A stretch of 39,806 nucleotides of DNA, from assembly GCA_036265815.1 (NCBI GenBank), contig DATAOI010000083.1, positions 1 through 39,806 of the forward strand, written 5' to 3'. The stretch is from Gemmatimonadales bacterium. GTDB taxonomy: Bacteria > Gemmatimonadota > Gemmatimonadetes > Gemmatimonadales > GWC2-71-9. The notes beneath the pieces are model-generated. The model saw nothing but the letters and a program-made list of their open reading frames with translations, was not told the origin of the DNA and did no database searches. Positions 7,234 through 22,788 of the stretch are shown piece after piece; the stretch's first letter is position 1; every line of letters begins with the position of its first letter. The position numbers and the translations under genes were made by a program.

Positions 7234-8283
7234 TTACGCCGCGGACTCTCCGGCGCGGTTGGCCTTGCGGGTCTCCACCTGCCGCTTGAGCCAGTCGATC
7301 TGGTCCTTGATGGTTTGCCGAGTGGCTTTGCTGGCCAGCCAATCGAAGGCCCGCTTCCGCTCCTCCTCGGAGAAGACGGGCGACTCCGCGAGCCGCTGAT
7401 AGAAGGCGACCTGCTTCTCGGTGGGCGCGTGCGGGCCGACCCGGCTGATCGGCTCGGCCAGGGGTGGCTGCAAGGTCGGGGTGGGCGCGGGCGCTGCCGG
7501 CGCGGGCGCTGGCGGCGCGGGCACTGCCGGGACGGCCTTGTTGACGCCACGAAGAGTGCCGGTCCGCGCCTCGACCACGCGTGCCTGGCCGTGCTGCCTG
7601 GCGCTGGCGATGACCTGGGCCCGCACGTTGCCCGGAATCAGGCGGAAGCGCGCGTTCCGCGCCGCCTTCATGGCGCCGGCCTCGTACCAGTGCGGATTGA
7701 GCTGCCGGCCGCGCTGGGCCACGATCTCTTCACCGGCGAGAATCCGGCGAACGAAGTCGCGGATCTGCCCCTCCTGAAAGTTTTCCGCCATCCAGCCGAG
7801 GTAATCCCGGCCGTCGTCGGTGGCGAGCAGCTCGCGGTAGGTGCTTCCCTTGTACTTCTTGCTCGGGACCTTGGCGTCGAGATCGAGCTGCGCCGGCTCG
7901 TAGTAGAGGGGCTGACGCTTGACGCCGATCACCTGGTCCAGACGGACTTCCTGTCCTGCGGGTGACACGGCATAGCGGGCAGCCTTCACCTTGAACAGCG
8001 CCTCCCGATCTTCAGCCTCCCCGATGACTTCGTATTGGAGATCCTCTTCCCGGATGACCTGTCCCTGGGAGACGAGCGCCATGCAGCATTCGTCCACCCC
8101 GGTCTTGGACAGCCCCACGACTTCCTGGCCGCCTTCCTTCACCACGTACACCAGCTCGGTGCTGGCGACCCCCTCGAGCTCCTTGCGGAGCGCTTCCTCG
8201 TCCATCCGGTCCATCAGTTGAAACGGATCCCATGGCGCCGCCGACGCGGCGGGGACCTCAACGGCATTCGTCATCTCTGACAT
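7234..8283 (-). CDS. Putative phage-type single-strand annealing / recombination protein
   Basis: 349 residues, ATG at 8283 with an SD-like GGAGAG about 9 bases upstream. Residues 44-70 (ELVYVVKEGGQEVVGLSKTG) resemble the core entry of RecT/Erf/Rad52-type annealing proteins. At 143-185 is an exonuclease-X-C-terminus-like segment, KKYKGSTYRELLATDDGRDYLGWM. At 203-217 AGAMKAARNARFRLIP matches the K-x-RNA-x-IP pattern common in phage annealing proteins. An Ala/Pro linker (about 250-285) leads to a C-terminal helical region starting PTEKQVAFYQRLAES, seen in similar proteins. The expected role is annealing or loading on single-stranded DNA in the cytoplasm. No phage genes surround it, so it is a solitary or domesticated copy. 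The family call is tentative; the domain order is what can be seen. Confidence 0.45.
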   Translation of the reverse strand: MSEMTNAVEVPAASAAPWDPFQLMDRMDEEALRKELEGVASTELVYVVKEGGQEVVGLSKTGVDECCMALVSQGQVIREEDLQYEVIGEAEDREALFKVKAARYAVSPAGQEVRLDQVIGVKRQPLYYEPAQLDLDAKVPSKKYKGSTYRELLATDDGRDYLGWMAENFQEGQIRDFVRRILAGEEIVAQRGRQLNPHWYEAGAMKAARNARFRLIPGNVRAQVIASARQHGQARVVEARTGTLRGVNKAVPAVPAPPAPAPAAPAPTPTLQPPLAEPISRVGPHAPTEKQVAFYQRLAESPVFSEEERKRAFDWLASKATRQTIKDQIDWLKRQVETRKANRAGESAA

Positions 8284-8561
8284 CGTCTCACTCTCCAGCA
8301 TCCGATTACGTGTGGGGACACGCGGAGTGTCCGCGGTCCGCTTCCGATTCCATTGCCCCGAATACCCTGGGGTCCCTCCGTTGGGCCCGAGCCTCTGTGC
8401 CGTGGTGTCGCCACTGGATTCCGGGTTCCGAGGTCGCTGGGGCGACGGATCGGACCTGCGCATATTGCCAGGGCGCAAATCGCGGGTGAGAGAGCCGAAA
8501 CGTGCGGTGGGAACTCACAGCGGCAGTGCGGCCCGTCCCCTCACGACCCAACGTAAGATAC

Positions 8562-9216: not shown

Positions 9217-9290
9217 CGGGACGTGGCGCAGTCCGGTAGCGCACTGCAATGGGGTTGCAGGGGTCGCGGGTTCAAATCCCGCCGTCCCGA
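9217..9290 (+). tRNA. tRNA-Pro (anticodon GGG)
   Basis: A 74-nt cloverleaf. CGGGACG (9217-9223) pairs with CGTCCCG (9283-9289), and A9290 is the discriminator. The anticodon stem CTGCA/TGCAG encloses ATGGGGT, giving GGG (CCC/CCT codons). The initial C of the acceptor arm and the GGTTCAAATCC T arm are typical of tRNA-Pro. The 3' CCA is not encoded. Confidence 0.97.
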
Positions 9291-9294
9291 CTCT

Positions 9295-9364: not shown

Positions 9365-9820
9365 ATGCGATTGCTCCCACTGTTCGGCGGGCTCATGCTG
9401 CTGGCGGCCTGCGGGTCCCGCGACCGCGCTCCCCGCTCGGAGACCGCCCAGGCCGGCGGCCCGCCGGTGGACATTACGGCCGTGACGCGAACCGCCTCGG
9501 GCCTGGGATACAAGGACGTGACGGTGGGACAAGGCGCCGAGGCCACACCGGGACACCAGGTGAAGGTGCACTACACCGGCTGGCTACTGGACGGGAAGAA
9601 GTTCGACAGCAGCAGGGACCGCGGCGAGCCGTTCGAGTTCGGGCTCGGCGCCCACCAGGTCATCGCCGGGTGGGACGAGGGAGTGGCGGGGATGAAGGTG
9701 GGTGGCAGACGCACACTGGTGATCCCGCCGGACCTGGGATATGGCGCCGGTGGAGCGCCGCCGGATATCCCTCCAGGAGCAACGCTGGTGTTCGACGTCG
9801 AGCTCCTCGACGTACGGTAA
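9365..9820 (+). CDS. FKBP-type peptidyl-prolyl cis-trans isomerase lipoprotein
   Basis: 151 residues. The N-terminus [18 protein letters not shown] is a lipoprotein signal with lipobox LAAC (Cys16), so the enzyme should be anchored in the envelope. A short linker leads to one FKBP domain (about 45-151) with [18 protein letters not shown], the FEFGLG strand, [26 protein letters not shown] and a closing VFDVELLDV, all hallmark FKBP segments including the active-site Trp. It catalyses prolyl isomerisation of exported proteins. It is a single-domain protein transcribed away from the tRNA-Pro terminator and convergent with the OmpA-like gene. Confidence 0.93.
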
Positions 9821-9830
9821 AGCGAGCGCG

Positions 9831-11945
9831 CTACTCCTCGGCTCGCTGCAGCTCCACTCGCCGATTCAACGCCCGGCCCGCGGGCTTGCGATTGTCCGCC
9901 GCGGGCCTGCTCGAGCCGAACCCGCGCGTATGGATCCGCTCGGACGGAACTCCCCGGCGCACCAGGTAGCGCCGCACGGCATCGGCGCGAGCGAGCGATA
10001 GGGCAAGGTTGGCCCGCCGGCCGCCAGTGGCGTCCGTGTGTCCCTGGATCTCCACCACCAGCTCGGGTGTGGCCACGAGCCGTTCCGCCAACGAATCGAG
10101 AGCCGGCCGGAACACCGGTGAGATCCGTCGCGATCCCCAGGGAAAGCGGGCCGGCACCCGGTGAGGGCCCAGGATATCACGATCGAGATCGATCGTCTCG
10201 ACGGGAGGGAGCACCGCGGGCTCGGGCGCCGCGTGGCTCTCTCCGATGGGAGCGCTGCTCTCCTCGCTCGGGGCGTCGGACGTGTCCGGACTCGCCGCGG
10301 GCGGCGCGGCAGGTGGCGGGGAGAGCATCGGCTCCGCCCGGCGAAGCACGAATTCCGCGGGCGCGTCCCGCCCCTCGGGCCGGGCGTCGATTGCCGCCGG
10401 GCCGTGGACCAGCTCCCAGCGTCCCGGGAAGAGGAACTCGGTCAGCAGTATCGTCACCGGTAGTCGCCGGGGCCGGCTGTCCCGCAGGAAGAAAACGCCT
10501 TCCGCATTGGTGAAGACCACCTGTCCGCCGAGGTCGAGCGCCGCGCCTTCTACCGGGGCGCCGGACTCGTCGCGGACCGTGCCGCGAGCGACGTAGCGGG
10601 CGATGCCGGTGTGGAGCTGAAGCGGCTGCGCTCCAGTGGAGGAGCCCATGTAGAGGAACGTGCTGCCCGAGGCAGAGTAGTCCATCGCGCCATCCGGGCG
10701 CATGTAGGTGCCGAAGTTGGTCGAATAGCTTCCCAGTTGCAGCCGAGCCGTGAGGTTGAGCGCGCTCCGAAACGGTTTGAACGGCTGGAACGGCTGGTGA
10801 ACGATCTGATAGTCCACCCCGAACTCCCCGATCCCGGTGATCACGCTGGCGCCGAAGAGCACCGTGGCCCGGCGGTCGCGGTAGCTGATCTGCTGCATCA
10901 GACCGAGGTGCGGGCCCACGTGCCAGCGGAGATTGGCGAGCGGCGTGGTCGCGACCGGCTGCCCCTGGGGCCGACTCTGCAGAATGAAGAGCTCCGTGTC
11001 GAGCCAGGAGCTGAGCTCCCGGCCGAGGGCAAAGTAGGAGCTGAGGTTGCGGATCCCCTGCGAGCGGGAATCGTAGATGCCGGCGGTGACCCGCCAGTCG
11101 CTCAGCCGCCCGCCTGCGAAGGCCGAGTTGCCGCTGGCCCGCACGGCCGGGCGCGAGTCGGCCGAATCCTGCACGAAGTTCTGCCGGGCCACTCCGACGC
11201 TGAAGGCGGGCGTGAGATCGTAGGTGACGACTGCGTTCTCCCGATCGTTCTCCGTCTGGTAAGGCGACGGTACCGCCACCCTCCGGAATCGGTCGGGGTT
11301 CCAGGCGTACGCCGCGCGAACGCCGAGGGGCCCATGGCGCCACTGGGCGCTGGAGGCGGCATAGGGCCGGTCGGACCCGATTCCGCCTGCCAGAGCCGCC
11401 GTGAAATCGGGCGACGGCTGCCATTCGAGTCCCGGCACCACCGTCTGGCGCTCCGCGACCACTGCCGTGCCGCTGAGCCGAAGCACCGGGGATAGTCGCC
11501 GCGTGACGATGAGCGCCCCGAGCGGGCGCTCCACGCTGGTGGGCTGAAAGGTCTGGGCGCCGAGGCCGCTGGAGCTGGCACCGCCGAACAACGCATAGGA
11601 CGTGCGCGCGTCTCCGCCGGTCCAGCCGGCGCCCTGGACGAGCAGGTTGTGCCCGCTGTTGAAGATGTCGGTGGGGAATCGGATCTGAAGGACGTCGTTG
11701 CCGAGCCTCAGCGTGTCGCGTCCCACCGAAGTACGGAGGAAGGCGCCCACCCGGAGTCCATCGAGGTAGCCGATCCCGATCCAGCCGTCCGCTCCGGGCC
11801 GCCAGAAGTTGGCCGTGGCCCCGTAGCCGTTCACCAGGGTCGAGCCGCCGCCCTCGAGCTGCACCACGGTCTGGGCGGCGGCAGGAAGGATGGGCGCCGT
11901 TACGAGCGCGGCGAGCAGGAGCCCCAACGGACGGCGGCGCAACAT
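9831..11945 (-). CDS. Outer-membrane barrel protein with carboxypeptidase-regulatory-like and OmpA domains
   Basis: 704 residues. A signal peptide (to about residue 24, ILPAAAQ) is followed by a long beta-strand-rich region (about 25-455) with repeated strands such as NRENAVVTYDLTPAFSVGVA, likely a barrel. Next comes a carboxypeptidase-regulatory-like beta-sandwich (about 457-520, RGTVRDESGAPVEGAALDLG), a Pro/Ala/Ser-rich linker (about 540-590) and an OmpA-type peptidoglycan-binding domain (about 605-704) with EIQGHTDATGG, NLALSLARADAVRRYLV and NRRVELQR. It is the last gene of an operon with three subunit-like proteins and a chaperone-like protein, in the place an usher gene would take. It may therefore be the outer-membrane assembly or anchoring component of a fimbria-like system. 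The domains are clear; the usher role is inference. Confidence 0.75.
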   Translation of the reverse strand: MLRRRPLGLLLAALVTAPILPAAAQTVVQLEGGGSTLVNGYGATANFWRPGADGWIGIGYLDGLRVGAFLRTSVGRDTLRLGNDVLQIRFPTDIFNSGHNLLVQGAGWTGGDARTSYALFGGASSSGLGAQTFQPTSVERPLGALIVTRRLSPVLRLSGTAVVAERQTVVPGLEWQPSPDFTAALAGGIGSDRPYAASSAQWRHGPLGVRAAYAWNPDRFRRVAVPSPYQTENDRENAVVTYDLTPAFSVGVARQNFVQDSADSRPAVRASGNSAFAGGRLSDWRVTAGIYDSRSQGIRNLSSYFALGRELSSWLDTELFILQSRPQGQPVATTPLANLRWHVGPHLGLMQQISYRDRRATVLFGASVITGIGEFGVDYQIVHQPFQPFKPFRSALNLTARLQLGSYSTNFGTYMRPDGAMDYSASGSTFLYMGSSTGAQPLQLHTGIARYVARGTVRDESGAPVEGAALDLGGQVVFTNAEGVFFLRDSRPRRLPVTILLTEFLFPGRWELVHGPAAIDARPEGRDAPAEFVLRRAEPMLSPPPAAPPAASPDTSDAPSEESSAPIGESHAAPEPAVLPPVETIDLDRDILGPHRVPARFPWGSRRISPVFRPALDSLAERLVATPELVVEIQGHTDATGGRRANLALSLARADAVRRYLVRRGVPSERIHTRGFGSSRPAADNRKPAGRALNRRVELQRAEE

Positions 11946-11949
11946 CGGC

Positions 11950-12711
11950 TCAGGGTGCCGCGGCGGAGATGGGCGGCGCGAGCATCGTGTCGAGCGTAAA
12001 CTTGGCGGTGCGAACCATCACCCTGGTCGGGGGCTCGGCCCCGGCCCAGGACGACTCGACCCAGCGCAGGCTGTGGGGGAAGATGGGGAAGCCGCCACTC
12101 GCCCCGGAGCGCGCATGTCCGTCCGTGGCGGTCAGCTCGATGATCCGGCCCAGGCGATCACTTCGGTTTTCCAGCTCCACTCGCACCCGCCGGCCGGAGG
12201 AATCCATCTCCATCGTCCGCACCAGCACATCGCTGGATTCCAGCCGTCGCTTCTGATTCAGGTAGACCACGTGCGGCAGCAGGATACGGACGTTGAGGCC
12301 GTTGTCGCTCCGGGCTCCGGTCATCGCGCTGATGATGTTGAACCACGCCGGCAGGCTGTCCGCACTGGCCTCGTAGAACACGGTGTACGATGCCCGCGGA
12401 GGAATCCGGAAGCTCATCGCCGAGAGCTTGAGGTGGAGACGCGTGGTGTCGAGCGGCACGTCCACCACCTCGCCCTGTTCGGTCACCCGGAACCCGCGGA
12501 CCTCGAGCACCACGTTGAGCGGGTACAGGCTGCCGTTGCTGAGCCGGAAGCTGGAGCTGGCATGCTCCTGGTATTCGGCGATCGGTGGAGTGACGGACTG
12601 GGCGGGGAGGAGTTGGGGAACCAGCAGCAACAGGCCGGCGAGCCGGGCCAGCCGGCTAGCCGGGCATCGAACGCGCCCGACGACTGCGATGGGAGCACGA
12701 AGCCAACGCAT
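11950..12711 (-). CDS. PapD-like periplasmic chaperone-like protein (second cluster)
   Basis: 253 residues. A basic start and hydrophobic stretch (LARLAGLLLLVPQLLPAQ) form an export signal. The mature part begins SFRLSNGSLYPLNVVLEVRG, which fits the first strands of a PapD-type Ig domain, followed by LKLSAMSFRIPPRASYTVFY, corresponding to the F1-G1 region. The second half (about 130-245) is another beta domain. Sequence is well diverged from classical chaperones, and the subunit-binding Arg/Lys pair cannot be placed with certainty. It lies 6 bases after the last subunit-like gene and 4 bases before the OmpA-fusion gene, so it belongs to that operon. Expected role: binding and delivering the small exported subunits in the periplasm. 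Confidence 0.6.
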   Translation of the reverse strand: MRWLRAPIAVVGRVRCPASRLARLAGLLLLVPQLLPAQSVTPPIAEYQEHASSSFRLSNGSLYPLNVVLEVRGFRVTEQGEVVDVPLDTTRLHLKLSAMSFRIPPRASYTVFYEASADSLPAWFNIISAMTGARSDNGLNVRILLPHVVYLNQKRRLESSDVLVRTMEMDSSGRRVRVELENRSDRLGRIIELTATDGHARSGASGGFPIFPHSLRWVESSWAGAEPPTRVMVRTAKFTLDTMLAPPISAAAP

Positions 12712-12717
12712 GGGACC

Positions 12718-13146
12718 TCATTGGGTGATCGCTACCAGATTGAGCGTCCGGGGGTACGTCCCCGCGATCAGGTCGGGCCGATCGATCAGGTCGATCCGGA
12801 CCTGGATTCCATCGCCGCGGCCGCTTCCCGCCTCGAGCGCAGGGATGGGCGGAGTGAACAGCCTCACGCTGCTTCTGGACGCTCCCGCGGATCCCGGCGC
12901 CTCGACGAACGCGACCAGGGAGACCGCCACGGGTTCGGCGGGGTCAGCGCTCCATGAGGTCGCCACGGGAATGGGGACATCCCCAAGTTTGGCCGCGGCG
13001 CCGCCGGGCAGCGTCACGGATACACTGGGCAGACGGGTGGCGATCAACGTCACGGACCGAGGGACGGAGGCCAAGCCGACTTGAGCGGCCAGCGGGGCCG
13101 TGTGGAGCAGGATCGCTCCGGCCAGCAGGGGGGCGGATCGGCGCAT
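12718..13146 (-). CDS. Small exported subunit-like protein (third paralogue)
   Basis: 142 residues. The signal peptide ends LAAQ; the mature protein starts VGLASVPRSVTLIATRLPSV, nearly the same opening as the paralogue at 13922-14473 (VGLTSSPATVSLTATKSST). It ends LNLVAITQ, matching LNLQAVVQ and LTIQAVTQ of the other two, so the three are tandem paralogues. This one is the shortest, lacking about 40 middle residues. The beta-only pattern and AGTYPRTLNLVA closing strand are like fimbrial or spore-coat-protein-U-type subunits. It lies 190 bases after the previous subunit gene and 6 bases before the chaperone-like gene. Confidence 0.65.
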   Translation of the reverse strand: MRRSAPLLAGAILLHTAPLAAQVGLASVPRSVTLIATRLPSVSVTLPGGAAAKLGDVPIPVATSWSADPAEPVAVSLVAFVEAPGSAGASRSSVRLFTPPIPALEAGSGRGDGIQVRIDLIDRPDLIAGTYPRTLNLVAITQ

Positions 13147-13252
13147 TGGCCGAAAGTACGGGCCGGAGCGGGAAGCCGCCAGGAAGCCGCGCCATGAGGT
13201 CGTATCCTCGGGTCAGTGTCGTGTCGGGGTACCACCTCGGGTCAAGGGTTCA

Positions 13253-13336
13253 GTATCGTCGCCAGGCCGTATCCGCGTGAGTCCATCCACTGCCACTGCC
13301 ACTGCCGCTGCCGCCACCGCCACCCCCAGCGCCACG
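13253..13336 (-). other. In-frame Gly-Ser tail after the UAG of the middle subunit gene
   Basis: Directly after the TAG of the gene at 13337-13915 the same frame stays open for 28 codons to a TGA at 13250-13252. It encodes RGA, a run of Gly, alternating Gly-Ser (GGGGGGSGSGSGSG), then WTHADTAWRRY. At DNA level it is a degenerate 6-nt repeat of the GGCAGT/GGTGGC type. This looks like a protein linker and not random non-coding DNA, so either the stop is read through or the gene was recently shortened. Confidence 0.4.
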
Positions 13337-13915
13337 CTACTGGGTTACCGCCTGGATCGTCAGGGTGCCGGTGTAGGTACCGGGCGTCAGCGTCGGGAAC
13401 CCTACCAGATTGAGCTCCAGATCCAGGTTGTCGGTCCGGCTGGCCACCTTGTTGGCGCCGTTGATCGCCTGGGTAAACAGGTTCAGGCTTCCGCCGGCCG
13501 TGCCCAGGCCACCCACACTGCCCTGGTTGATGGCCGTGAACGTGGTCGGCGCGCCGGTCGTCATCCGTCCCAGCACGCGGCTGGAGGGGATCTGGGTGCT
13601 GCCGCCGACCAGCGCCTGCGCCGGAACCGCGAAGTACGCCACCAGGGAGACGGATGCGGTCTGCCCGGGGTTGAGGTTCCAGTTGGTCAGCACCCCGACC
13701 GGAGACGGAAAGGAATTGACCGCATTGTCGGTCAGGCTGGCGATCGACTGCGTCGCCCCCGAGGTCACCGTCACGCCCAGCACGCTGGGCGACGCGGCCA
13801 CCAACGCCAGAATCTGCGCGGGCCCGAGCTGACCCGTCTGCGCCACGACGCCCCGCGTGGCCGGCGCCCCCGAGAGCAGGAGCAAGAGCGCACAGGCGCG
13901 CGGGGCATTGGGCAT
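13337..13915 (-). CDS. Small exported subunit-like protein (second paralogue)
   Basis: 192 residues with a signal peptide (residues 1 to about 26, ending VVAQ). The body parallels its neighbour at 13922-14473: both have a segment like LTNWNLNPGQTASVSLVAYF, a PAQA-x-GG/NG motif, IPSSRVLGR versus IPSSKVEGR, GGSLNLFTQAINGANKVASR versus GSLVLYSQAVGAGSFLGSR, and the final GTYTGTLTIQAVTQ. All-beta and Cys-free. It starts 6 bases after the previous stop. The TAG stop is followed in frame by a Gly-Ser-rich tail (see 13253-13336). Likely a secreted surface or fimbrial subunit served by the chaperone-like protein; the exact family is not recognised. Confidence 0.65.
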   Translation of the reverse strand: MPNAPRACALLLLLSGAPATRGVVAQTGQLGPAQILALVAASPSVLGVTVTSGATQSIASLTDNAVNSFPSPVGVLTNWNLNPGQTASVSLVAYFAVPAQALVGGSTQIPSSRVLGRMTTGAPTTFTAINQGSVGGLGTAGGSLNLFTQAINGANKVASRTDNLDLELNLVGFPTLTPGTYTGTLTIQAVTQ

Positions 13916-13921
13916 GATGCG

Positions 13922-14473
13922 CTACTGAACCACGGCCTGGAGGTTGAGAGTCCCGGTGTAGTTGCCCGCGACCGTGAAGGTGTTGGCCAGGTTGAGCCGC
14001 ACGTCCAGCTGATCCGACCGGCTGCCGAGGAACGAGCCGGCACCCACCGCCTGGGAGTAGAGCACCAGGCTTCCGTTCGCCACGCCGACGCCGCCAGTCG
14101 CGCCGCTGGTGAACGGCGCGAACGCCGTGGCTCCCACCCGCCCCTCCACCTTCGACGACGGAATGAAGTCGGTCCCATTGGCCATCGCCTGTGCCGGGGT
14201 GGCGAACCAGCCCACCAGCTTCATCGAGGTACCGGCCGTCAGATTCCACGCCGTGGTGAGCGTGACGGGAGTGAACACGTTGGCCGCGGAGCTGTCGGTG
14301 ATGCTCGCGAGGGTGGCGGTTCCCGAGGTGGGGCTCAGCGTCAGCGTGCTGGACTTGGTGGCCGTGAGCGACACCGTCGCGGGGCTGGACGTCAGACCCA
14401 CCTGGGCGTTGGCCACGCCGGCGGCCAGGGTCAGGGCGAGGGCACCCGCCATTCCGCGCGTGACGAGCTGCAT
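13922..14473 (-). CDS. Small exported subunit-like protein (first gene of the second cluster)
   Basis: 183 residues, ATG at 14473 (the frame is open further upstream, but this ATG directly precedes the clear signal peptide MQLVTRGMAGALALTLAAGV ending ANA). The mature protein is beta-rich, Thr/Ser/Val-rich and Cys-free, ending GNYTGTLNLQAVVQ. It is the leading member of three tandem paralogues, followed by chaperone-like and OmpA-fusion genes. A sigma-54-like element lies about 64-79 bases upstream. Probable role: major structural subunit of a surface fibre; this is inferred from the operon. Confidence 0.7.
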   Translation of the reverse strand: MQLVTRGMAGALALTLAAGVANAQVGLTSSPATVSLTATKSSTLTLSPTSGTATLASITDSSAANVFTPVTLTTAWNLTAGTSMKLVGWFATPAQAMANGTDFIPSSKVEGRVGATAFAPFTSGATGGVGVANGSLVLYSQAVGAGSFLGSRSDQLDVRLNLANTFTVAGNYTGTLNLQAVVQ

Positions 14474-14536
14474 GAGGTGACTCCGGGGGCTAAAGGGTGG
14501 TCGGTGGTACGTGTACACTGGTTCGGGTGGCGGAAT

Positions 14537-14552
14537 TACAAGTGCCGTGCCA
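14537..14552 (-). promoter_or_regulatory. Sigma-54-like promoter of the second fimbria-like operon
   Basis: On the minus strand TGGCACG-GCAC-TTGTA matches the sigma-54 consensus TGGCACG-N4-TTGCW except that the -12 C is T. Transcription would begin near 14526, giving a leader of about 53 bases before the ATG at 14473. The same TGGCACGG-x-ACTTG core precedes the first operon at 19978-19993. Confidence 0.55.
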
Positions 14553-14570
14553 GCTTTCGCATAGGCTGAA

Positions 14571-14591
14571 CTGACGGAGGGCGTCAGGATT
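14571..14591 (-). promoter_or_regulatory. Possible activator site: CTGACG-N5-CGTCAG
   Basis: A perfect 6-bp inverted repeat centred about 28 bases upstream of the -24 GG. The flanking minus-strand word AATCCTGACG recurs exactly upstream of the other sigma-54-like element (20029-20038), which suggests a common activator. Confidence 0.4.
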
Positions 14592-14796
14592 CTGCGCGTC
14601 ACGCAATTCGACACCCCGGCCGGGCGGCGGGGCCGGAAGTTCTGGCGCAGTCGAGTCTTGACATCGAGGCCTGGGGAACGGTACCGCTCCCGGGTGCAGC
14701 AGCGGACGAACCGGCGATACGAAATAGGCGCGGAGCGGGCCATCCGGACGCCTCGTATCGCTCATTGTGCGAGGGCGGCCTGTACCTCCCTTCGAG

Positions 14797-17379
14797 TCAG
14801 GGGGCCTGCGGCTCCCGCCGCAGCCGAACCACGATGCCGTCCACCGGACCGCTCTGAGGAGCCGCCACCGCGAAGCTGGCCGGCGTCTGCCGAGCCTTCA
14901 GCAGGTCGAGTGTCTCGCGGGTCACCGTCGCCTCGTACGCACCCGGACGCAGCCCCGTCGCGTAGAACGAGCCGTCACTGAACGTGGTGATCCGCACGGT
15001 GGCGCCCGAGCTCACGTGGCGGAGCACCACGGCTACCCCGCCCACGCCCGCCTCATCGTCGCCGAGCACCACTCGGCCCGCCGCCTCGCTCGCCGGGAGC
15101 AGCGCCACGTCCACCGCGTCGTAGGAGTTGGGGCCGGGCACCAGCCGGTAGACCAGCGAGGCCGGCACCCACAGCGGGTCGTCGATGGAGAGAGTGTCCA
15201 CCTCGACCGAGGTGGCCTCGAACGGCACGAGGTCCCAGGCCGAGTAGCGCCCGAGCGAGTCGGTCGTGACGCCGCGGGAGCCGACCCGAAGCCGAACTCC
15301 TGCGACGCCGGGCTCCTCGGTACCTTGAATCCCGTTGCCATCGAGGTCGCGGTAGACCCGTCCCACCACTCGCGCGCGCCCGATGAGCGGCCCGTTTCCG
15401 AGCTCCACCCGCCGCAGATGACCGTCGTAGGTTGCCGAGCCCTCGAGGAGATTGGTCCCCTCGAGACCGGCCGCCGCCGTGTAGCGGCTGCGACTCACGC
15501 CGCGCAGGCCGGGCAGATTGGTGGTGAGCGCCAGGTCGAGCGCCATGCCGCCCTGGCCGCGGGTCCACCCGCCGCCCACATCGAGCCGGATCGGGCCGGC
15601 GAGCTGGCGACCGACGCCGAGCGTCACCCGCGAGAGCCCCGAGGTCTCGAGCGAGAGATCGCCGCGGAGGAACAGGTTCCGGAGGACCGGGCCGGGGCCG
15701 CGCAGGACCAGGTCGCCCGCGCCATCGATGCCGACCTGCGAGGCGTCGGCGGTAGTGGGAAGTCGGCGGTGGTGAACTCCGGTCACCACTCGCAGATTGC
15801 CCAACCGCGAGGTGAGCGCCAGCCGCTCGGCGTCGCTGGCTCCGGTGGCCAGCCGGGTGTGGGAGAGCGCGAGCTGCACGATGCTGCCGCTGGCGGGACG
15901 CGTCCGCCAGAAGACCACCGCGTCCGTCCGATCCCGCTCCGCTCCGCTGATGAGCGGCGAGGGAACCCCGCTGGCGAACCTGGTGTGCTCGACGTCCAGA
16001 TGCAGATCGGGCGTGGGGTCGAAGTCCGCGCGCCCGCGCACCAATCCTCGGCTCACGCCCTCCAGCGTCAGACTGGTGGAGGAGGTGACGGCGGCGCTCA
16101 CCAGCGCGTAGGGATGCCAGAGGTCGGGGAGCGAGTCGCGCCAGAAGTTATCGGAGCCGGTTTCCGCGGTGAGCCAGGACGTCACGCCGTATCGCGCCGA
16201 GAGCGACAGGGCGCCAGCACATGGCTCGCCGTGGCAGGCGCCTCCGCTCACGGCGTATTCGAAGCGGCCGTCGGGCAGGCGGTCGAACGGCACCTGGACT
16301 GTCCGTCTCCGGTGCACCACCTCGCCATTGGGCCCGTACGCCACCATCTCGATCGGATTGGCGCCGTATTGCAGCGGCACGTCGAGGGCATAGTGGCCGG
16401 TGGCACCGGCGGCCGTATAGCCCAGCAGCTGCTGGTCCTGATAGAGGTCCAGCTCCCAGCCGTCGGGGAGTGAGCCGTCGAGCAGCTCCTGGCCGAAGGC
16501 GGCCGGGCGAAGAAACGGCGCGTTGGTGAGCTCGATGCCGCGCAGCACGCGTCCGCGCCGCGCGCCCGGAACGATGTCGCCGAGACGGAGCTGTCGGAGC
16601 CAGCGTCCGCCCGGCCATACGCCGGACCAGGACGACCGCAGGTCGGTGCTGCCGCCCGCATCCGACTGCTGTCCCGCATACTGCAGCTCGAGGCTGCCGC
16701 CGAGGAGCTCGGCGCCAAGCCCGAGCTGCAGCAGGGAGGCACCCACCGGATCGGTGAGCGCGCCGGTGTAGGCCCAGTCGAGGACGGCGCCGTCGGCGAC
16801 GCGCCGGTTACGCGCCAGGGTGGTCTCCCAGGGCGTCGTGGCGGGGAGTCCGAGCAGCGTGCGGCGCCGCTGTTCCCGGGCCAGCCGGCGGACGACGGGA
16901 AGGTCAGAGGTATGGCTGGCCACGAGGATCAGCTCGCCGAAGTCGGCCTGGAAATCGATGCCAAGAGCGGCACCGAGGGCGGCCGTGCTGGCATACAGCT
17001 CATCGCCCCGCCAAAGGAGCGCCTCCGGCGCAACCCGCCAGACGCTGTCGCCGCGGGAGACCGTGCCCGAATCGGCGTCGAAGGCGAACGGGATGCGGCC
17101 GGGCTGGAGCACGCCCGCCATTCGGCGCCGCGCGACCCCCGAAGCGAGCCGCACCTCGGCGAGCTCGAGAAACCGGCGGACGGGCACCAAAGTGAGCGTG
17201 TCGCGCCCGAGAGCCGAGACGACCTCGACCGGCCCTCCATCGATCCGGAGCTGGAGCAGCACGTCGGTGAGCGCGCTGTCAGCGCCCGCGAGCTCCTGGG
17301 CGTGCAGCGACGTGGGGCAGCGTCCGAGCGCGACGGCGAGGGTGAGCGCGGCAAGCCGGCGCAGGACGGCCGCGCGCAC
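14797..17379 (-). CDS. Usher-like outer-membrane protein with SdrD/carboxypeptidase-regulatory-like C-terminus
   Basis: 860 residues, GTG start at 17379. A signal peptide ends near TSLHAQ. An N-terminal domain (about 40-150) has VPVRRFLELAEV and IDFQADFGELILVA, as at the start of ushers. A beta-rich pore region follows; at about 300-365 lies the plug/Ig-like segment SLPDGWELDLYQDQQLLGY...YALDVPLQYGANPIEMVAYGPNGE, very characteristic of ushers. CHGEPC just after may form a disulfide. From about 672 the C-terminus has an SdrD B-like module (YRDLDGNGIQGTEEPGVAGV) and a second beta-sandwich (SDGSFYATGLRPGAYEATV), not the usual usher CTDs. Role: pore for export and assembly of the DUF4402-like subunits. 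It begins 6 bases after the subunit gene upstream and ends the operon. Confidence 0.72.
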   Translation of the reverse strand: MRAAVLRRLAALTLAVALGRCPTSLHAQELAGADSALTDVLLQLRIDGGPVEVVSALGRDTLTLVPVRRFLELAEVRLASGVARRRMAGVLQPGRIPFAFDADSGTVSRGDSVWRVAPEALLWRGDELYASTAALGAALGIDFQADFGELILVASHTSDLPVVRRLAREQRRRTLLGLPATTPWETTLARNRRVADGAVLDWAYTGALTDPVGASLLQLGLGAELLGGSLELQYAGQQSDAGGSTDLRSSWSGVWPGGRWLRQLRLGDIVPGARRGRVLRGIELTNAPFLRPAAFGQELLDGSLPDGWELDLYQDQQLLGYTAAGATGHYALDVPLQYGANPIEMVAYGPNGEVVHRRRTVQVPFDRLPDGRFEYAVSGGACHGEPCAGALSLSARYGVTSWLTAETGSDNFWRDSLPDLWHPYALVSAAVTSSTSLTLEGVSRGLVRGRADFDPTPDLHLDVEHTRFASGVPSPLISGAERDRTDAVVFWRTRPASGSIVQLALSHTRLATGASDAERLALTSRLGNLRVVTGVHHRRLPTTADASQVGIDGAGDLVLRGPGPVLRNLFLRGDLSLETSGLSRVTLGVGRQLAGPIRLDVGGGWTRGQGGMALDLALTTNLPGLRGVSRSRYTAAAGLEGTNLLEGSATYDGHLRRVELGNGPLIGRARVVGRVYRDLDGNGIQGTEEPGVAGVRLRVGSRGVTTDSLGRYSAWDLVPFEATSVEVDTLSIDDPLWVPASLVYRLVPGPNSYDAVDVALLPASEAAGRVVLGDDEAGVGGVAVVLRHVSSGATVRITTFSDGSFYATGLRPGAYEATVTRETLDLLKARQTPASFAVAAPQSGPVDGIVVRLRREPQAP

Positions 17380-17385
17380 GGAGGG

Positions 17386-17925
17386 TCAGTTTCCGGTGTA
17401 GGCCGCCGACATGGTGACGAGACCGGTGTAGATACCGGGCTGCTGTCCCACGGTCGGCGAGACCTTGCCACCGATCCACACGAAGAAGGTATTCTGCGGC
17501 GGCGGGTTGTTGCGGATCCGGACCACGAGCGCGGTCGATGGCGTGTAGGCCGTGCAGTTGGTCTGCTGATCCTGGTTGCGGTGACACCCCATCTTCCCGA
17601 CGACCGGATCGTCGGCGAAGCTGATCGGCATGTTCTGGGTCCCCGCCTGCAGCACCGCCGGGAGCGCGAAGGTGATCCGCACCTCGGCGTTCTTGACGCC
17701 GTGGATCACGAGCTTGCCGGCGAGCGCCGTCTTCGGCCCGATGGCGAATGGCGTCCCCGGCACCACCACGCCGAAGTCGAGGCCGTTCAGCTGGCCGATG
17801 GTGACCGCCGTATTGTCGATGATGGCGTTGGCGGCGAACGAGGCGGTCGTCTGCGCCCAGGCACCGCGCGGCCCGGCCAACGCCAGCAACGCGAGCAGCA
17901 GCGCGGAGCGGCGGACCTGCCGCAT
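17386..17925 (-). CDS. DUF4402-like exported subunit (third of the first cluster)
   Basis: 179 residues. The signal peptide ends GAWAQ. The mature protein shows the DUF4402 pattern: NGLDFGVVVPG early, LVIHGVKNAEVRITFALP in the middle, FFVWIGGKVSP and the ending GIYTGLVTMSAAYTGN. A Cys pair (GCHRNQ and QTNC) absent from the two sister subunits could form a disulfide and may mark a tip or adhesin role. It overlaps the chaperone stop by one base and ends 6 bases before the usher-like gene. Confidence 0.75.
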   Translation of the reverse strand: MRQVRRSALLLALLALAGPRGAWAQTTASFAANAIIDNTAVTIGQLNGLDFGVVVPGTPFAIGPKTALAGKLVIHGVKNAEVRITFALPAVLQAGTQNMPISFADDPVVGKMGCHRNQDQQTNCTAYTPSTALVVRIRNNPPPQNTFFVWIGGKVSPTVGQQPGIYTGLVTMSAAYTGN

Positions 17926-18773
17926 CAGCGGATCTCCAGATCCACCGTCCGGCTCACCGGCTCGGCAGGGAGAATGTGGTGCTGGTCCAGGTCGCTCCGC
18001 GTGGTGGTCACGCCCAGGCGGAAGCTGTAGTGGCCCGGCGCGGCGCTATCGATCGGGAAGACGTAGCGGCGGTTCAGGCTGTGATAGACGGCGAGCGGGC
18101 TCTCCCATTCGCCGCGCACGTGGTTGCCGGCGTCGACCAGCTGACCGGTGAGGGTACCAAGGAAGGCGGCGTTGCCGCGGCGGTCGGCGCGGAGCCAGAC
18201 GACCAGCGAGTCTCCCTCCTGGGCCGCGCGGAGATCGGTGAGGTCCAGACCGGTGTGCACCTCGCCCTTCCGGTAGGACAGCGAGATGATGGTTCGGAGC
18301 TCGAGCGCCAGGCCCGCGGAGACGCCGCTTTCGCCGCTCACGACCGCAACCTTGGACCCGCGGGAGGTCGCGATGATGCGGCTCCAGTACTCGCCGTCCG
18401 CCAGATCGGCGGGTGGCGTCGCGAGCAACCGGACGACCTGCCGCTGTCCCGGAGCCAGCACCGCGCGACGGGGGTAGGCCTTGACCCAGCCGGCCGCGGA
18501 GGGCTCGCTCGAGTCGGGCTGGTCGACGAGCTTGATGTAGATGGTGCCGCTGGAGTCGGTCGCGGGGTACCCGTAGGTGAGGTCGATGGACACCTCCTCC
18601 GGGGTATCACTGGTGTTCACCAGGAACACCTGACCAGTGCGGCTCCGGTGGTCCATGAACACCGCATGGGGCGCCACCAGGATCGCCTCCAGCACCAGGG
18701 GCCACACGGCGAGTGCTCCGAGGGCGAGGGCGGCAGCGGCAGTGACCCGGCGGATCAGACGGAAGCGGCGCAT
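17925..18773 (-). CDS. PapD-like periplasmic chaperone (first cluster)
   Basis: 282 residues. After a hydrophobic N-terminal signal (about 1-30) the mature part opens with ILVAPHAVFMDHRSRTGQVF and LVNTSDTPEEVSIDL, the A1-B1 strands of the PapD N-domain. The segment RRAVLAPGQRQVVRLLAT matches the F1-G1 donor-strand region with its PGQ-x-VRL motif, and SRIIATS follows. The C-terminal domain (about 165-282) is a second Ig-like domain. The chaperone should cap subunits in the periplasm by donor-strand complementation and deliver them to the usher-like protein. It overlaps each neighbour by one base, indicating translational coupling. At 282 residues it is longer than classical chaperones of about 230. 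Confidence 0.78.
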   Translation of the reverse strand: MRRFRLIRRVTAAAALALGALAVWPLVLEAILVAPHAVFMDHRSRTGQVFLVNTSDTPEEVSIDLTYGYPATDSSGTIYIKLVDQPDSSEPSAAGWVKAYPRRAVLAPGQRQVVRLLATPPADLADGEYWSRIIATSRGSKVAVVSGESGVSAGLALELRTIISLSYRKGEVHTGLDLTDLRAAQEGDSLVVWLRADRRGNAAFLGTLTGQLVDAGNHVRGEWESPLAVYHSLNRRYVFPIDSAAPGHYSFRLGVTTTRSDLDQHHILPAEPVSRTVDLEIR

Positions 18774-19273
18774 CAGGTTCCCGTGTAGGCGATAGTCAGA
18801 GTGATGGTACCGGCATACGTGCCGGCGGTCTGCCGGGCGGCGGGAGACGCGGTGCCGCCGAGAAACAGGTACAGCCGGCCGTTCCCGCTGAGTGTGGTGA
18901 TGAGCGCGCTTCGCGGATCGAACGGTGCGGCGGTCGCAATGGTGCCGTCCCGGGTGTATCCGGCGTCTCCGGGACCGAACCCGAGCGGCACTTTGGCCCC
19001 GCGGGGCCCGGTCAGCGCCGAGGGCAATCCCAGGTCCACCCGTACCTCCGAGCCCTTGGCGCCGCGCAGCTCAAACTGCCCGGCGCGGAGCGCATCCAGC
19101 CGGCTCACTCTCGTTGGGGTGCCGGCGAACAGGGTCCCGAAATCCAGCATCTGCCGATTCAGTGCGTTGAGGGCTCGCCCCCCATTGCCCTGCCCCTGTG
19201 CACCGGCGGCCGCCGGCAGCGCCAGCTGAGTCAGGAGGCCTCCGACGAGCAGCAAATGCGGCGCGAGACTCAC
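18773..19273 (-). CDS. DUF4402-like exported subunit (second of the first cluster)
   Basis: 166 residues from a GTG at 19273, chosen because GGAGGGG lies 7 bases upstream and a clean signal peptide follows (SLAPHLLLVGGLLTQLALPA, cut after AGA or AQG). The frame continues upstream to an ATG at 19331-19333, but that extension is Arg/His-rich and lacks an SD. DUF4402 features: QMLDFGTLFAGTPTRVS, GAKGSEVRVDLGLPSAL, LYLFLGGTASP and the ending GTYAGTITLTIAYTGT. It overlaps the chaperone start by one base and lies 108 bases after the first subunit gene. Confidence 0.72.
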   Translation of the reverse strand: MSLAPHLLLVGGLLTQLALPAAAGAQGQGNGGRALNALNRQMLDFGTLFAGTPTRVSRLDALRAGQFELRGAKGSEVRVDLGLPSALTGPRGAKVPLGFGPGDAGYTRDGTIATAAPFDPRSALITTLSGNGRLYLFLGGTASPAARQTAGTYAGTITLTIAYTGT

Positions 19274-19381
19274 CCGCAATCCCCTCCGGTGATGACGATC
19301 ATTCCACGAACGGCAACGCTGGCGGACCGACATCGCGCCCGCCAGCGTTCCGGAGCCTCCATCCGTTCGGGACCGCGCCGG

Positions 19382-19906
19382 TCAGTTGCCGGTGTAGGCG
19401 GCGCTCAGATTGACGGTGCCGGTATAGGTGCCGGGGGCCTGATTGGCCGGCGGGGTAACGGTACCGCCCAGGTACAGGCTCAGCAAGCCGGTCGAGTTGT
19501 TCAGCCGCACCGTGCGGGCCACCGTGGGGTCGAAGGTCGTGGAGCCCGCCCGGGTGCCGGCCGGGTTGGTGGCCGCGGCGGTCGAGCCATAGGTGAGGGG
19601 GATCGCCGTGCCTGGACCGGTCAGCGTCGCGGGCAGCGAGGTGAAGGTGATCGTGATCTCCGCGTTCGCGCCGCCGCCGAATCCAACCTCGCCCGAAGTC
19701 ACGTCGCTGGGGAGGACCGTCCGCGCGATGCCGCCGAAGGTCGAGCCGAAATCGAGCCCCCGCACGGTCGTGGCCGTGAGAGCGGTCTGTACGACGGCCT
19801 GCGCCGGAATGCTTGCGGTGGCCGGAGTGGCCTGGGCCTGGGCGGTGCTCATTGCACCGAGCACGAGAGCGGCGCCGGCGAAGGCACCCTTCACGGACAC
19901 GTTCAT
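19382..19906 (-). CDS. DUF4402-like exported subunit (first gene of the operon)
   Basis: 174 residues, ATG at 19906 preceded by AGGTGGAG six bases upstream. A GTG four codons earlier overlaps this SD and is rejected. The signal peptide ends STAQAQ. The mature protein has the DUF4402 pattern: RGLDFGSTFGGIART, GGGANAEITITFTSLPATLT, LSLYLGGTVTPPANQAPGTY and the ending VNLSAAYTGN. It is Ala/Thr/Gly-rich and Cys-free. Being first in the operon with the best SD and behind a sigma-54-like promoter, it is the likely major subunit of the fibre. Confidence 0.78.
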   Translation of the reverse strand: MNVSVKGAFAGAALVLGAMSTAQAQATPATASIPAQAVVQTALTATTVRGLDFGSTFGGIARTVLPSDVTSGEVGFGGGANAEITITFTSLPATLTGPGTAIPLTYGSTAAATNPAGTRAGSTTFDPTVARTVRLNNSTGLLSLYLGGTVTPPANQAPGTYTGTVNLSAAYTGN

Positions 19907-20415: not shown

Positions 20416-21336
20416 TCACCGGTCGTGGTCGTCATCCCGATTACGGTCGTGGTCGTCGTCATCTCCCTTCTCGTCGGACGATCGGTGCAGGTGCCCCGGC
20501 CGCACCAGTGCGACGGTGCCCTGGAACGACTCCAGCGTCACCTGTGCGCTGCCAGAACCGATGGTGAAGTTGAAGCGCTTGCCTTTCCGGGTCTCGTTGA
20601 TGGTCACCGGAAACTCCGACTGAAACTCGCCATTGAAGGTGGAGACCGAGATGGCGGCGCTGGTGCCCTCGGCAACGGCGAGCGTGACGTCCCCATTATG
20701 GCTGGAGAGGGTATAGCGTCCACCGTTGTGGATGGGGCCGTCGTAGCTGAGATCTCCGTTTACGGTGCTGGCATCGAGGCTGGTCGCGTCCACCCGCGCC
20801 AGCGTGATCTCCCCGTTCACCGTTTCAGCCGTGATCTCGCCGGAGGCGTCGAACACCGAGACGTCTTCGTTCACCGAGTGCAGGTCGATCCGCCCCCGGG
20901 CTCCGTGCAGCGTCACCGAGCCCTGGACCGAGCGCAGCGACACGTTCCCCTGGCCGCCGGTCACGTCCACGCTCCCCTGCACCGTCTCGACCGTCACGGG
21001 GCCCCTGGCCCCACGCACCGTCACGTCGCCGTTCACTCCCGAGAGGTCGAGCCCCATCCAGGCCGGCGCGGTGATCTCCAGGTCGACCGACGGCGGGCCG
21101 TGGCGCCCTTCGGTTTTCACATTCACCACCGACCCGGCGGTGGAGACCTGCACCTCCGCACGAGAGGACGGGTCCGCCTGGACCCGCACCGCATTCCGGC
21201 TCCAAGTCTTGATGTTGACCTCGCCGCCGAAATTGTCCACCTCGAGGCGTTGGCCACTCGAGACCGCCACGGTGGTGTCGACCTGTGGCAGCGCGCTCAT
21301 GGTGGCGAGAGCAGCGGTGGCGAGGGAGAGCAGCAC
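20416..21336 (-). CDS. DUF4097-like beta-helical envelope protein
   Basis: 306 residues from a GTG at 21336, chosen because AAAGGA lies 8 bases upstream and a signal peptide begins there (LLSLATAALATMSALPQ). The body is a regular repeat of short strands of the type GSVDVTGGQGNVSLRSVQGS and VNGEITLARVDATSLDAS, the pattern of DUF4097/DUF2807-type beta-helices. The tail is a low-complexity Asp/His/Arg run (DDDDHDRNRDDDHDR) that could bind metal ions. It is the third gene after an ECF sigma and its anti-sigma (13-base gap), a common arrangement for proteins of this family; the function is unknown, probably envelope-related. Confidence 0.75.
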   Translation of the reverse strand: MLLSLATAALATMSALPQVDTTVAVSSGQRLEVDNFGGEVNIKTWSRNAVRVQADPSSRAEVQVSTAGSVVNVKTEGRHGPPSVDLEITAPAWMGLDLSGVNGDVTVRGARGPVTVETVQGSVDVTGGQGNVSLRSVQGSVTLHGARGRIDLHSVNEDVSVFDASGEITAETVNGEITLARVDATSLDASTVNGDLSYDGPIHNGGRYTLSSHNGDVTLAVAEGTSAAISVSTFNGEFQSEFPVTINETRKGKRFNFTIGSGSAQVTLESFQGTVALVRPGHLHRSSDEKGDDDDHDRNRDDDHDR

Positions 21337-21349
21337 GGTCGCGGTCCTT

Positions 21350-22039
21350 TCAGCTCGCGGCGGAGACGAGGGCCGCGGCCTGCCGGAGCAGCTCCAGCTT
21401 CCGCCGCATCGTCTCCGCCAGGTGAGAGTTGAGGTAGATGTTCGCCGAGTCGGCGGCGAGGGCACGCTGGGCCTGGGCAATCGCCCGGTCGATGGTCGCC
21501 AGATTCTGTTCGATGATGCGCACCGTCGTGGTATCCAGCCGGCCGCGATTTCGGGTCAGGACCTGCTGCAGCTCCGCCACGGCCACATCGTAACTCCGCT
21601 CCGCCGGGCGTGCCGGACCGACCGCGACGGGCACCGCCGGCGCAGGGGCCGGCTGGGGCGCGACCGCCAGGGGGGGCGCCCCCGGGTGAAGCAGCCAGGC
21701 CGCTGCGCCGGAGAGAGTCATGAGGGCGATCCCCGCCGCCGCCAGCTGGGGCAGCGAGAAGACCCAGCGGCGGGGTATCCGCCCAGCGAGCCGGATCTCG
21801 GCCGGCCCGTCGGGCACGGCGGCAGGCGCGCCGATGCGGGCCGCGATGCCGGGCCAGAGGTCATGCGCCGGGGCACGATCATCCAGGGCTCGGGCCCGCC
21901 GGACGATCCGCTTGAGGTCCGCCACCGCCGCGCCGCAGGCGATGCAATGGCGGAGGTGGTCCTCGAGCGCGCTCCGATCCGCGTCGGGCAGCTCGCCGTC
22001 GAGATACTCGGACAGCCGATCGGTCCAGATGTCGGTCAT
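21350..22039 (-). CDS. Zinc-finger anti-sigma factor
   Basis: 229 residues, ATG at 22039, 10 bases after the sigma-factor stop. The N-terminus LSEYLDGELPDADRSALEDH carries the zf-HC2 motif H28-x3-C32-x2-C35. One membrane segment lies at about 93-117 (VFSLPQLAAAGIALMTLSGA), followed by a Pro/Ala-rich spacer and a helical periplasmic domain (about 145-229). It should hold the ECF sigma factor at the inner membrane until an envelope signal releases it. Co-transcribed with the sigma factor and the DUF4097-like gene. Confidence 0.88.
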   Translation of the reverse strand: MTDIWTDRLSEYLDGELPDADRSALEDHLRHCIACGAAVADLKRIVRRARALDDRAPAHDLWPGIAARIGAPAAVPDGPAEIRLAGRIPRRWVFSLPQLAAAGIALMTLSGAAAWLLHPGAPPLAVAPQPAPAPAVPVAVGPARPAERSYDVAVAELQQVLTRNRGRLDTTTVRIIEQNLATIDRAIAQAQRALAADSANIYLNSHLAETMRRKLELLRQAAALVSAAS

Positions 22040-22049
22040 GGTGTGCTCC

Positions 22050-22622
22050 TCAGCGCTCCAGGTGCTCCCGCAGCGCCATGCGGGCCCGGTGAAGCTGGGA
22101 CTTGGAGGTGCCGGTGGCGAGGCCCAGCATCTCGGCGATCTCCTCGTGGCGATAGCCCTCGATGTCGTGGAGAACGAACACCTGCCGGGCACCCTGTGGC
22201 AGCCGTTCGATCGCCACCTCGAAATCCATCGACAGCTCGGGCGTCGGTCGCCGGCTGGGCACGGTCTCGAGCACTGCGTCTCCTTCGAGGTAACGCTGAC
22301 GCCGGATTCCCAGCGTCTGGCGCCGGCCAAGAATGACGTTGACTGCCAGCCGGTGCAGCCAGGTGCCGAAGGCGGACTCACCGCGGAAGGTTCCCAGCTT
22401 CTGCCAGGCCCGCACGAACACGTCCTGTGCCACTTCGTCAGCCTCCTCGTCGCTCAGCATCCGCCGGACCAGGCTATGGATCCTCGCCACGTGACCACGA
22501 TACAGCCGGGCAAAGGCGTGAGCATCGCCGCTGGCCGCCAGCGTCGCGTCTACCGTATCCGAGTCGCTTCTGCCGGTTTGCTCGTGACGCAGCGTCGCTA
22601 CTCCAAGGCCGGATGGGGTCAT
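22050..22622 (-). CDS. ECF-family RNA polymerase sigma factor
   Basis: 190 residues. Region 2 (about 30-100) shows HAFARLYRGHVARIHSLVRR, DEEADEVAQDVFVRAWQKL and FGTWLHRLAVNVILGRRQ; region 4 (about 130-190) shows LPQGARQVFVLHDIEGYRHE and EEIAEMLGLATGTSKSQLHR, a clear helix-turn-helix. There is no region 1.1 or 3, as expected for ECF sigma factors. The ATG at 22622 has no SD; the frame is open far upstream only because it crosses repeat R2. An ECF regulon controlled by the anti-sigma factor encoded next is expected. R2 begins 42 bases upstream, so this element may sit in the promoter or leader. Confidence 0.88.
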   Translation of the reverse strand: MTPSGLGVATLRHEQTGRSDSDTVDATLAASGDAHAFARLYRGHVARIHSLVRRMLSDEEADEVAQDVFVRAWQKLGTFRGESAFGTWLHRLAVNVILGRRQTLGIRRQRYLEGDAVLETVPSRRPTPELSMDFEVAIERLPQGARQVFVLHDIEGYRHEEIAEMLGLATGTSKSQLHRARMALREHLER

Positions 22623-22663
22623 CGCGAGGGGTTGGATCGCTTGACGGAACAGAAGGTTGCAGG

Positions 22664-22788
22664 AGAGGGTGGGGCAAGGTGGGGCAGGGTGAGGCAAGGT
22701 GAGGCAGGGTGAGGCAAGGTAGGCAAGGTGGTCCCTTCCGCCCATCACCTTGCCCCACCCTGCCTCACCCTGCCCCACCCTGCCACCT
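22664..22788 (+). repeat. Inverted array of 10-nt G-rich units (element R2)
   Basis: Left arm (about 22664-22731): six consecutive near-identical units GRGGCARGGT with period exactly 10. Right arm (about 22744-22788): four units YTGCCYCACC, the complement. The spacer is about 12 bases. The plus strand at 22667-22689 also satisfies a G-quadruplex pattern (runs of 3-4 G with loops of 1, 6 and 2). It lies between the helical-protein stop and the ECF sigma start, both on the minus strand. Confidence 0.85.

Follow-up and report, generated by a model that had tools for sequence, protein, structure and literature searches.

A 39,806-nucleotide stretch of DNA from a Gemmatimonadales bacterium (contig DATAOI010000083.1; hereafter ‘the window’, meaning the stretch at its full length) probably carries two independent chaperone-usher-type fibre cassettes in one chromosomal slot, the first (operon A) with a full-length usher and the second (operon B) with a reduced one. 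The host is an uncultured soil bacterium with a draft genome of 4.59 Mb. The cassettes lie in an unbroken minus-strand block running from 19906 to 9831, which holds ten intact genes in two runs of 3+1+1 composition (subunits, chaperone and usher in operon A, 14797–19906; subunits, chaperone and barrel protein in operon B, 9831–14476), with 320 bp in between. An original prediction, made from the letters of the sequence, had proposed eleven contiguous minus-strand genes in two runs; the two runs hold, the count does not. Within each run, neighbouring genes overlap by 1 base or are 4–47 bp apart, except that T2 and T3 are separated by 190 bp; the 273-aa open reading frame at 13922–14743 (T1) probably starts at 14476. 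Because both gene sets were found again in relatives, in the same order, the genes of both operons can be considered real. They are as follows.

19382–19906, minus strand: S1, DUF4402 pilin-like subunit of operon A (Pfam DUF4402 2.6e-6, above cut-off; family conserved)
18773–19333, minus strand: S2, DUF4402 subunit of operon A (Pfam DUF4402 2.3e-5, above cut-off)
17925–18773, minus strand: Ch1, PapD-superfamily periplasmic chaperone of operon A (PapD_N in orthologs; hhalign)
17386–17925, minus strand: S3, DUF4402-like subunit of operon A with an additional Cys pair (DUF4402 5.5e-4, below cut-off; orthologs in L021 and L019)
14797–17379, minus strand: putative operon A usher, 860 aa (FimD alignment; C-terminal SdrD_B and CarboxypepD_reg sandwiches)
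13922–14476, minus strand: T1, operon B subunit (family profile; no Pfam match)
13337–13915, minus strand: T2, operon B subunit (family profile)
12718–13146, minus strand: T3, shortened T subunit of operon B, 142 aa (family profile, matched in two pieces)
11950–12711, minus strand: Ch2, putative operon B chaperone (AlphaFold2 model of the ortholog in genome G002; Foldseek and VIA; hhalign to Ch1)
9831–11945, minus strand: BarB, predicted plugless usher-like outer-membrane protein of operon B (AlphaFold2; Foldseek and VIA; CooC_C hint; OmpA), comprising barrel (~10647–11870), C-terminal sandwich (~10338–10595) and OmpA domain (~9861–10145)

Judged by sequence, operon A appears to be a system of DUF4402 pilins, PapD-type chaperone and usher. 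Pfam matched DUF4402 in 37/40 members of its subunit family and, weakly, spore coat protein U (SCPU), an archaic pilin family, in 6/40; in 39/40 there was a C-terminal GxY motif, its glycine 13–16 residues from the end. Scans of single proteins with Pfam and NCBIfam gave no usable match for Ch1. PapD_N was weakly matched in 6/19 Ch1 orthologs, and the ortholog in genome G043 (L119) lay above the PapD_N cut-off across the entire domain. Since the Ch1 profile matches this ortholog over its full length (5.6e-80), Ch1 itself belongs to the PapD superfamily, as a periplasmic chaperone of two immunoglobulin-like (Ig) domains. Against E. coli chaperones its profile gave P 0.0013 in hhalign; of the E. 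coli proteins scored with the Ch1 profile, EcpB ranked first.

For the 860-aa usher, above-cut-off Pfam matches were confined to the two C-terminal sandwiches. Residues 260–411 (~16147–16602) nevertheless align in register with FimD 257–416, the barrel region carrying the plug, at P 0.00046 (hhalign), compared with P 0.2–0.7 for the decoys LptD, FhuA and FepA against the usher profile. With the same profile, E. coli YehB was matched at 9.3e-5, and one usher ortholog matched Usher (PF00577) at 6.6e-4, below cut-off. At the level of sequence the protein is thus an usher barrel with plug, and a conserved N-terminal region lies upstream of the FimD-aligned part. On these results the run-1 components fared as foreseen in the original prediction, with DUF4402-like subunits (S1 and S2 above cut-off, S3 weak), a PapD-like chaperone and an usher-like protein. 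The searches with hidden Markov models that it had proposed were positive for DUF4402 (S1, S2) and PapD_N (the G043 ortholog), and remained below cut-off for PF00577.

The order subunit–subunit–chaperone–(subunit)–usher is kept in most loci examined, across several families of Gemmatimonadota. Sphingopyxis indica pMC4 carries a trio of DUF4402, chaperone and usher genes, with one subunit gene, annotated ‘DUF4402 - molecular chaperone - carboxypeptidase regulatory-like’ and matched by the Ch1 profile at 4.2e-23 and the usher profile at 9e-85; a contig search with the window's usher sequence alone gave no match. Given the recurrence of the order and the profile matches to this trio, operon A can be placed as a divergent representative of a broader, poorly named chaperone-usher class occurring also in Sphingomonadales. 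The expectation that standard annotation would call most of these proteins hypothetical was largely confirmed: the Sphingopyxis counterpart of the run-1 usher is annotated as a ‘carboxypeptidase regulatory-like domain-containing protein’.

In operon B, Pfam returned family matches only to OmpA (2.4e-22) and CarboxypepD_reg-like domains, both in BarB, and the Pfam and NCBIfam sequence libraries identified no family for T1–T3 or Ch2. An AlphaFold2 model of BarB (residues 1–548, OmpA omitted, from an alignment of 14 sequences; mean predicted local distance difference test score, pLDDT, 74.6) shows ~26 consecutive strands at residues 26–433 and a small sandwich at 451–536. Searched with Foldseek against 350,542 PDB chains, its top 16 matches were all FimD or PapC (best 1.6e-13), the first non-usher match being LptD at 8.8e-7. 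A second aligner, VIA, also placed FimD/PapC pores at the top (Z 17.4, 315–329 residues aligned). The model therefore points to a large outer-membrane barrel of the usher type, in line with the outer-membrane protein predicted for run 2.

By the usual description an usher has two C-terminal domains in addition to its barrel, plug and N-terminal domain, with gating ascribed to the plug and recruitment to the N-terminal domain. The BarB model contains no plug domain, the longest inter-strand loop across residues 26–433 being of ~21 residues, and no usher N-terminal periplasmic domain, the first strand beginning at residue 26, directly after the signal peptide. For the C-terminal sandwich, CooC_C, which is the C-terminal domain of CS1-pilus ushers, was hinted at in 3/10 BarB orthologs, and EcpC was matched at P 0.008 (hhalign); when the profiles of the two pores were compared with each other, alignment was limited to this sandwich. 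We give an even chance to the proposal that operon B represents a separate chaperone-usher branch not described so far, seen here in Gemmatimonadota alone, whose pore, a minimal usher, works with a barrel and a single C-terminal domain and has neither plug nor N-terminal recruiting domain. No description was found in the open-access literature on DUF4402 and on chaperone-usher systems in Gemmatimonadota, nor was one found there of a stripped-down export pore like BarB.

The fusion of barrel and OmpA that had been predicted is present in the window, but most relatives' copies of BarB stop short of the OmpA domain, and the tail is a lineage-specific extra. OmpA domains in general bind peptidoglycan, and this one probably ties the pore to it in the window's genome. 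A similar tail (9861–10145 in the window) was seen in G012, out of frame in the assembly (L064, ~10140–10405).

Ch2 was modelled through a close relative. In genome G002 (L063), a T subunit and Ch2 were folded as one artificial chain by reading through the TGA between a T3-like gene and Ch2, a computing device that we do not claim to occur in the cell (pLDDT 83.3; predicted template modelling score, pTM, 0.48). The Ch2 part consists of two beta-sandwiches, for which the top Foldseek matches, usher chaperones for the most part, included CsuC (best), WxLIP, CfaA, Caf1M, YadV and FimC, and VIA placed CfaA first (Z 13.3, root-mean-square deviation 3.7, 195/211 residues). Ch2 and Ch1 profiles align colinearly (hhalign, P 0.00066), and a viral structure library gave general Ig-like matches only. 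The predicted fold of this relative's copy thus argues for a two-Ig usher chaperone, in agreement with the chaperone-like protein proposed for run 2.

In the mature T subunit of the same model the first 16 residues are disordered, which is compatible with an N-terminal extension and no proof of one. At the other end, the glycine of a C-terminal GxY stands exactly at −14 in 23/23 T proteins; a glycine at this position belongs to the pilin motif that PapD reads, and an anchored carboxylate would lead one to expect a fixed C-terminal length. T3 lacks the middle stretch of the other T subunits and could be degenerating or serve as a cap or terminator. Relatives keep to the order T–Ch2–(T)–BarB, and conservation of BarB (36–62% identity), Ch2 and T extends over two families and 13 genomes, the reduced architecture being the same throughout.

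Presence of the cassettes was scored in 395 genomes of the phylum, by an usher match at E ≤1e-30 for operon A and a BarB match for operon B. Operon A was present in 78/395 and operon B in 13/395, and both occurred in the window's genome alone. Among its nearest 60 relatives, 27 had A, nine had B and none had both, an outcome with a chance of 0.003 under independence, a figure weakened by the kinship of the genomes. A contig search with the BarB profile found 12 loci, all from Gemmatimonadota, and relatives of operon B in named records bear only the labels Gemmatimonadetes, Gemmatimonadales or Gemmatimonas. Moreover, both operons share one slot, bordered by tRNA-Pro(ggg) and an FKBP gene on one side and by DUF4097, anti-sigma and sigma genes on the other, which in the window are placed as follows.

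9217–9291, plus strand: tRNA-Pro(ggg), bounding the variable slot on the left (ARAGORN; also present at the slot in congeners)
9365–9820, plus strand: FKBP-type prolyl isomerase, left slot neighbour (Pfam 2.3e-37; synteny)
20416–21360, minus strand: DUF4097 protein, right slot neighbour (Pfam; synteny)
21350–22700: zf-HC2 anti-sigma and extracytoplasmic function (ECF) sigma genes, after the DUF4097 gene (Pfam; synteny)

The congeners G003, G004 and G006 have an empty slot (~425–845 bp); operon B fills it in G002 and G005, as well as in G007, where the contig is broken. Remnants of operon A occupy it in G001 (usher C-terminus alone; L165, 2217–3233) and G009 (usher and the end of Ch1; L166, 1985–4690), either as loss in progress or as assembly faults. 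Beyond the window's genus, G022 and G029 carry A there, and G012 and G013 carry B. Taken together, the 78/13/one-genome distribution and the turnover of the slot (empty, A, B, both or decayed) indicate that A and B are self-contained and exchangeable. Slot copies of A in relatives have the opposite orientation to the window's A, and the approximately unbiased test rejects a grouping of the window's usher with the relatives' slot ushers (p 7e-23); for these two reasons operon A was most likely gained separately in the window's genome, beside B. No flanking repeats marking a mobile element were found at the slot. The tRNA-Pro(ggg) at 9217–9291 occupies this position in a dozen or so related genomes, which suggests an integration or recombination hot spot. 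The ECF sigma and zf-HC2 anti-sigma genes, conserved with the slot, are candidate regulators of the cassettes.

Several observations weigh against reading the two operons as a pair of fibre cassettes. PF00577 was above cut-off in none of the genomes studied, and profile searches of PDB sequences recovered only C-terminal sandwich or chance matches, with no ushers or chaperones; the barrel-with-plug assignment of the operon A usher is a sequence-level one. For BarB, modelled from those 14 sequences, OprD-type porins follow in VIA at Z up to 16.3 (~265 residues aligned), so that the usher match is best and not isolated, leading by coverage more than by Z; its TM-scores to ushers in Foldseek are only 0.2–0.45. 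The low pTM of the T–Ch2 chain makes the two folds usable individually and their mutual placement not, and WxLIP, which has no fibre-chaperone role, stands high among the Ch2 matches. Finally, a D1 proline and an F1 arginine are reported as super-conserved hallmarks of non-classical chaperones (PMC4654587); neither was seen in Ch2 at the level of sequence, by hhalign and by eye, and the carboxylate anchor of Ch2, if any, would therefore differ.

The original prediction had been of a single fibre system, in which two classes of subunit came together in one fibre through two outer-membrane partners. The two operons are indeed adjacent, on the same strand and intact in the window's genome, but each comes with a chaperone and a pore of its own, A is absent from the 12 further genomes with B and B from 77 genomes with A, the shared slot in congeners carries one, the other or none, and the window's A is not of the lineage found in relatives' slots. 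Adjacency in relatives, which the prediction had itself named as a test, was thus not observed, the operons being unlinked there. A composite of A and B is highly improbable, and was rejected on distribution and linkage. That operon B instead descends from an A-type system and, having lost its plug and N-terminal domain, is decaying or no longer functional, is very unlikely: T3 is shortened in the window and truncated copies of A do occur in the slot, yet conservation across 13 genomes and two families in one and the same reduced form runs counter to decay.

A different account of operon B makes it a surface-display system, in which BarB would act as an anchor or exporter resembling a porin, and Ch2, as a binding protein of two Ig domains, would deliver T proteins singly to the surface, without polymerisation. 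It would fit the absence of plug and N-terminal domain from the BarB model, the OprD-type porins close behind in VIA, the similarity of WxLIP to Ch2, and the fact that the operon showed no gene for an adhesin-like tip protein of two domains. We nonetheless regard it as unlikely, given that usher-pathway components are the best matches of both the BarB and Ch2 models, several paralogous T subunits surround a single chaperone and a single pore, all T proteins have the fixed C-terminal length of chaperone-bound pilins, and the gene order parallels that of operon A.

To the gene content, conserved order, homologies, predicted folds and slot turnover established here by computation, the reading as two fibre cassettes would add incomplete subunits, donor-strand complementation and exchange, export, and polymerisation into a fibre, which we infer. 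The small subunits of each operon would be exported to the periplasm by Sec and held by the two-Ig chaperone, which would complete their fold by donor-strand complementation; the outer-membrane usher would then thread and polymerise them into a surface fibre, the chaperone strand in each subunit giving way to the N-terminal extension of an adjacent one. In operon A the subunits would be DUF4402 pilins and the usher a full-length one, made up of an N-terminal region, a barrel with plug and two C-terminal sandwiches; operon B would use T subunits, Ch2 and a reduced usher of a large barrel and one C-terminal sandwich, tethered to peptidoglycan in the window's genome by its OmpA domain. The BarB sandwich would have to replace the recruiting role of the absent N-terminal domain, and the pore would need closure by something other than a plug.

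Operon A would then be new within a known class, and the apparent absence of plug and N-terminal domain from the operon B model is the most surprising claim. A fibre system apparently without these domains offers a direct test of which parts are needed for pilin secretion and polymerisation and, if BarB is a true minimal usher, could show how little such a machine needs. The results would extend chaperone-usher pathways to Gemmatimonadota genomes without an above-cut-off Pfam Usher match, and present the slot as an exchange site where fibre systems arrive, leave and decay.

A third chaperone-usher-like arrangement was seen in L118 (3476–8293; G039) and also in L120, combining small subunits with a chaperone above the PapD_N cut-off and an outer-membrane candidate of 976 aa that carries an NPCBM_assoc domain. 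Elsewhere in the window, two proteins have no Pfam match at 1e-5, one of 450 aa (30040–31389), immediately behind a TonB-dependent receptor gene, and one of 354 aa (7237–8298). Terminator and promoter scans gave no signal above shuffled sequence.

Among known systems, type 1 and P pili (FimC-FimD, PapD-PapC) provide the pores to which both the BarB barrel and the operon A usher align, although identity is very low, the subunits differ and operon B falls short by two usher domains. The archaic pathway (Csu, spore coat protein U) is echoed by CsuC, the top Foldseek match of Ch2, and by the weak SCPU matches of the DUF4402 subunits; however, the sequences lie below family thresholds and the domain make-up of BarB is different. 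The alternative pathway (ECP, EcpABC; CS1/CFA-I) likewise combines a subunit, a two-Ig chaperone and an usher with a C-terminal sandwich, such as is predicted in BarB, and resemblances to it recur in both operons, with CfaA the best structural match of Ch2 in VIA, EcpB the top E. coli score of the Ch1 profile, and the BarB C-terminal domain weakly like CooC_C and EcpC. It differs in that BarB is without N-terminal domain and plug and, in the window, has an OmpA tail, that neither D1 proline nor F1 arginine is seen in Ch2 when sequences are aligned, and that T subunits match no known pilin family. The DUF4402 operons of Sphingomonadales, as in Sphingopyxis indica pMC4, have one subunit gene where operon A has three and an annotation without fimbrial function, but they share with it all three components, in the same order and with matching profiles.

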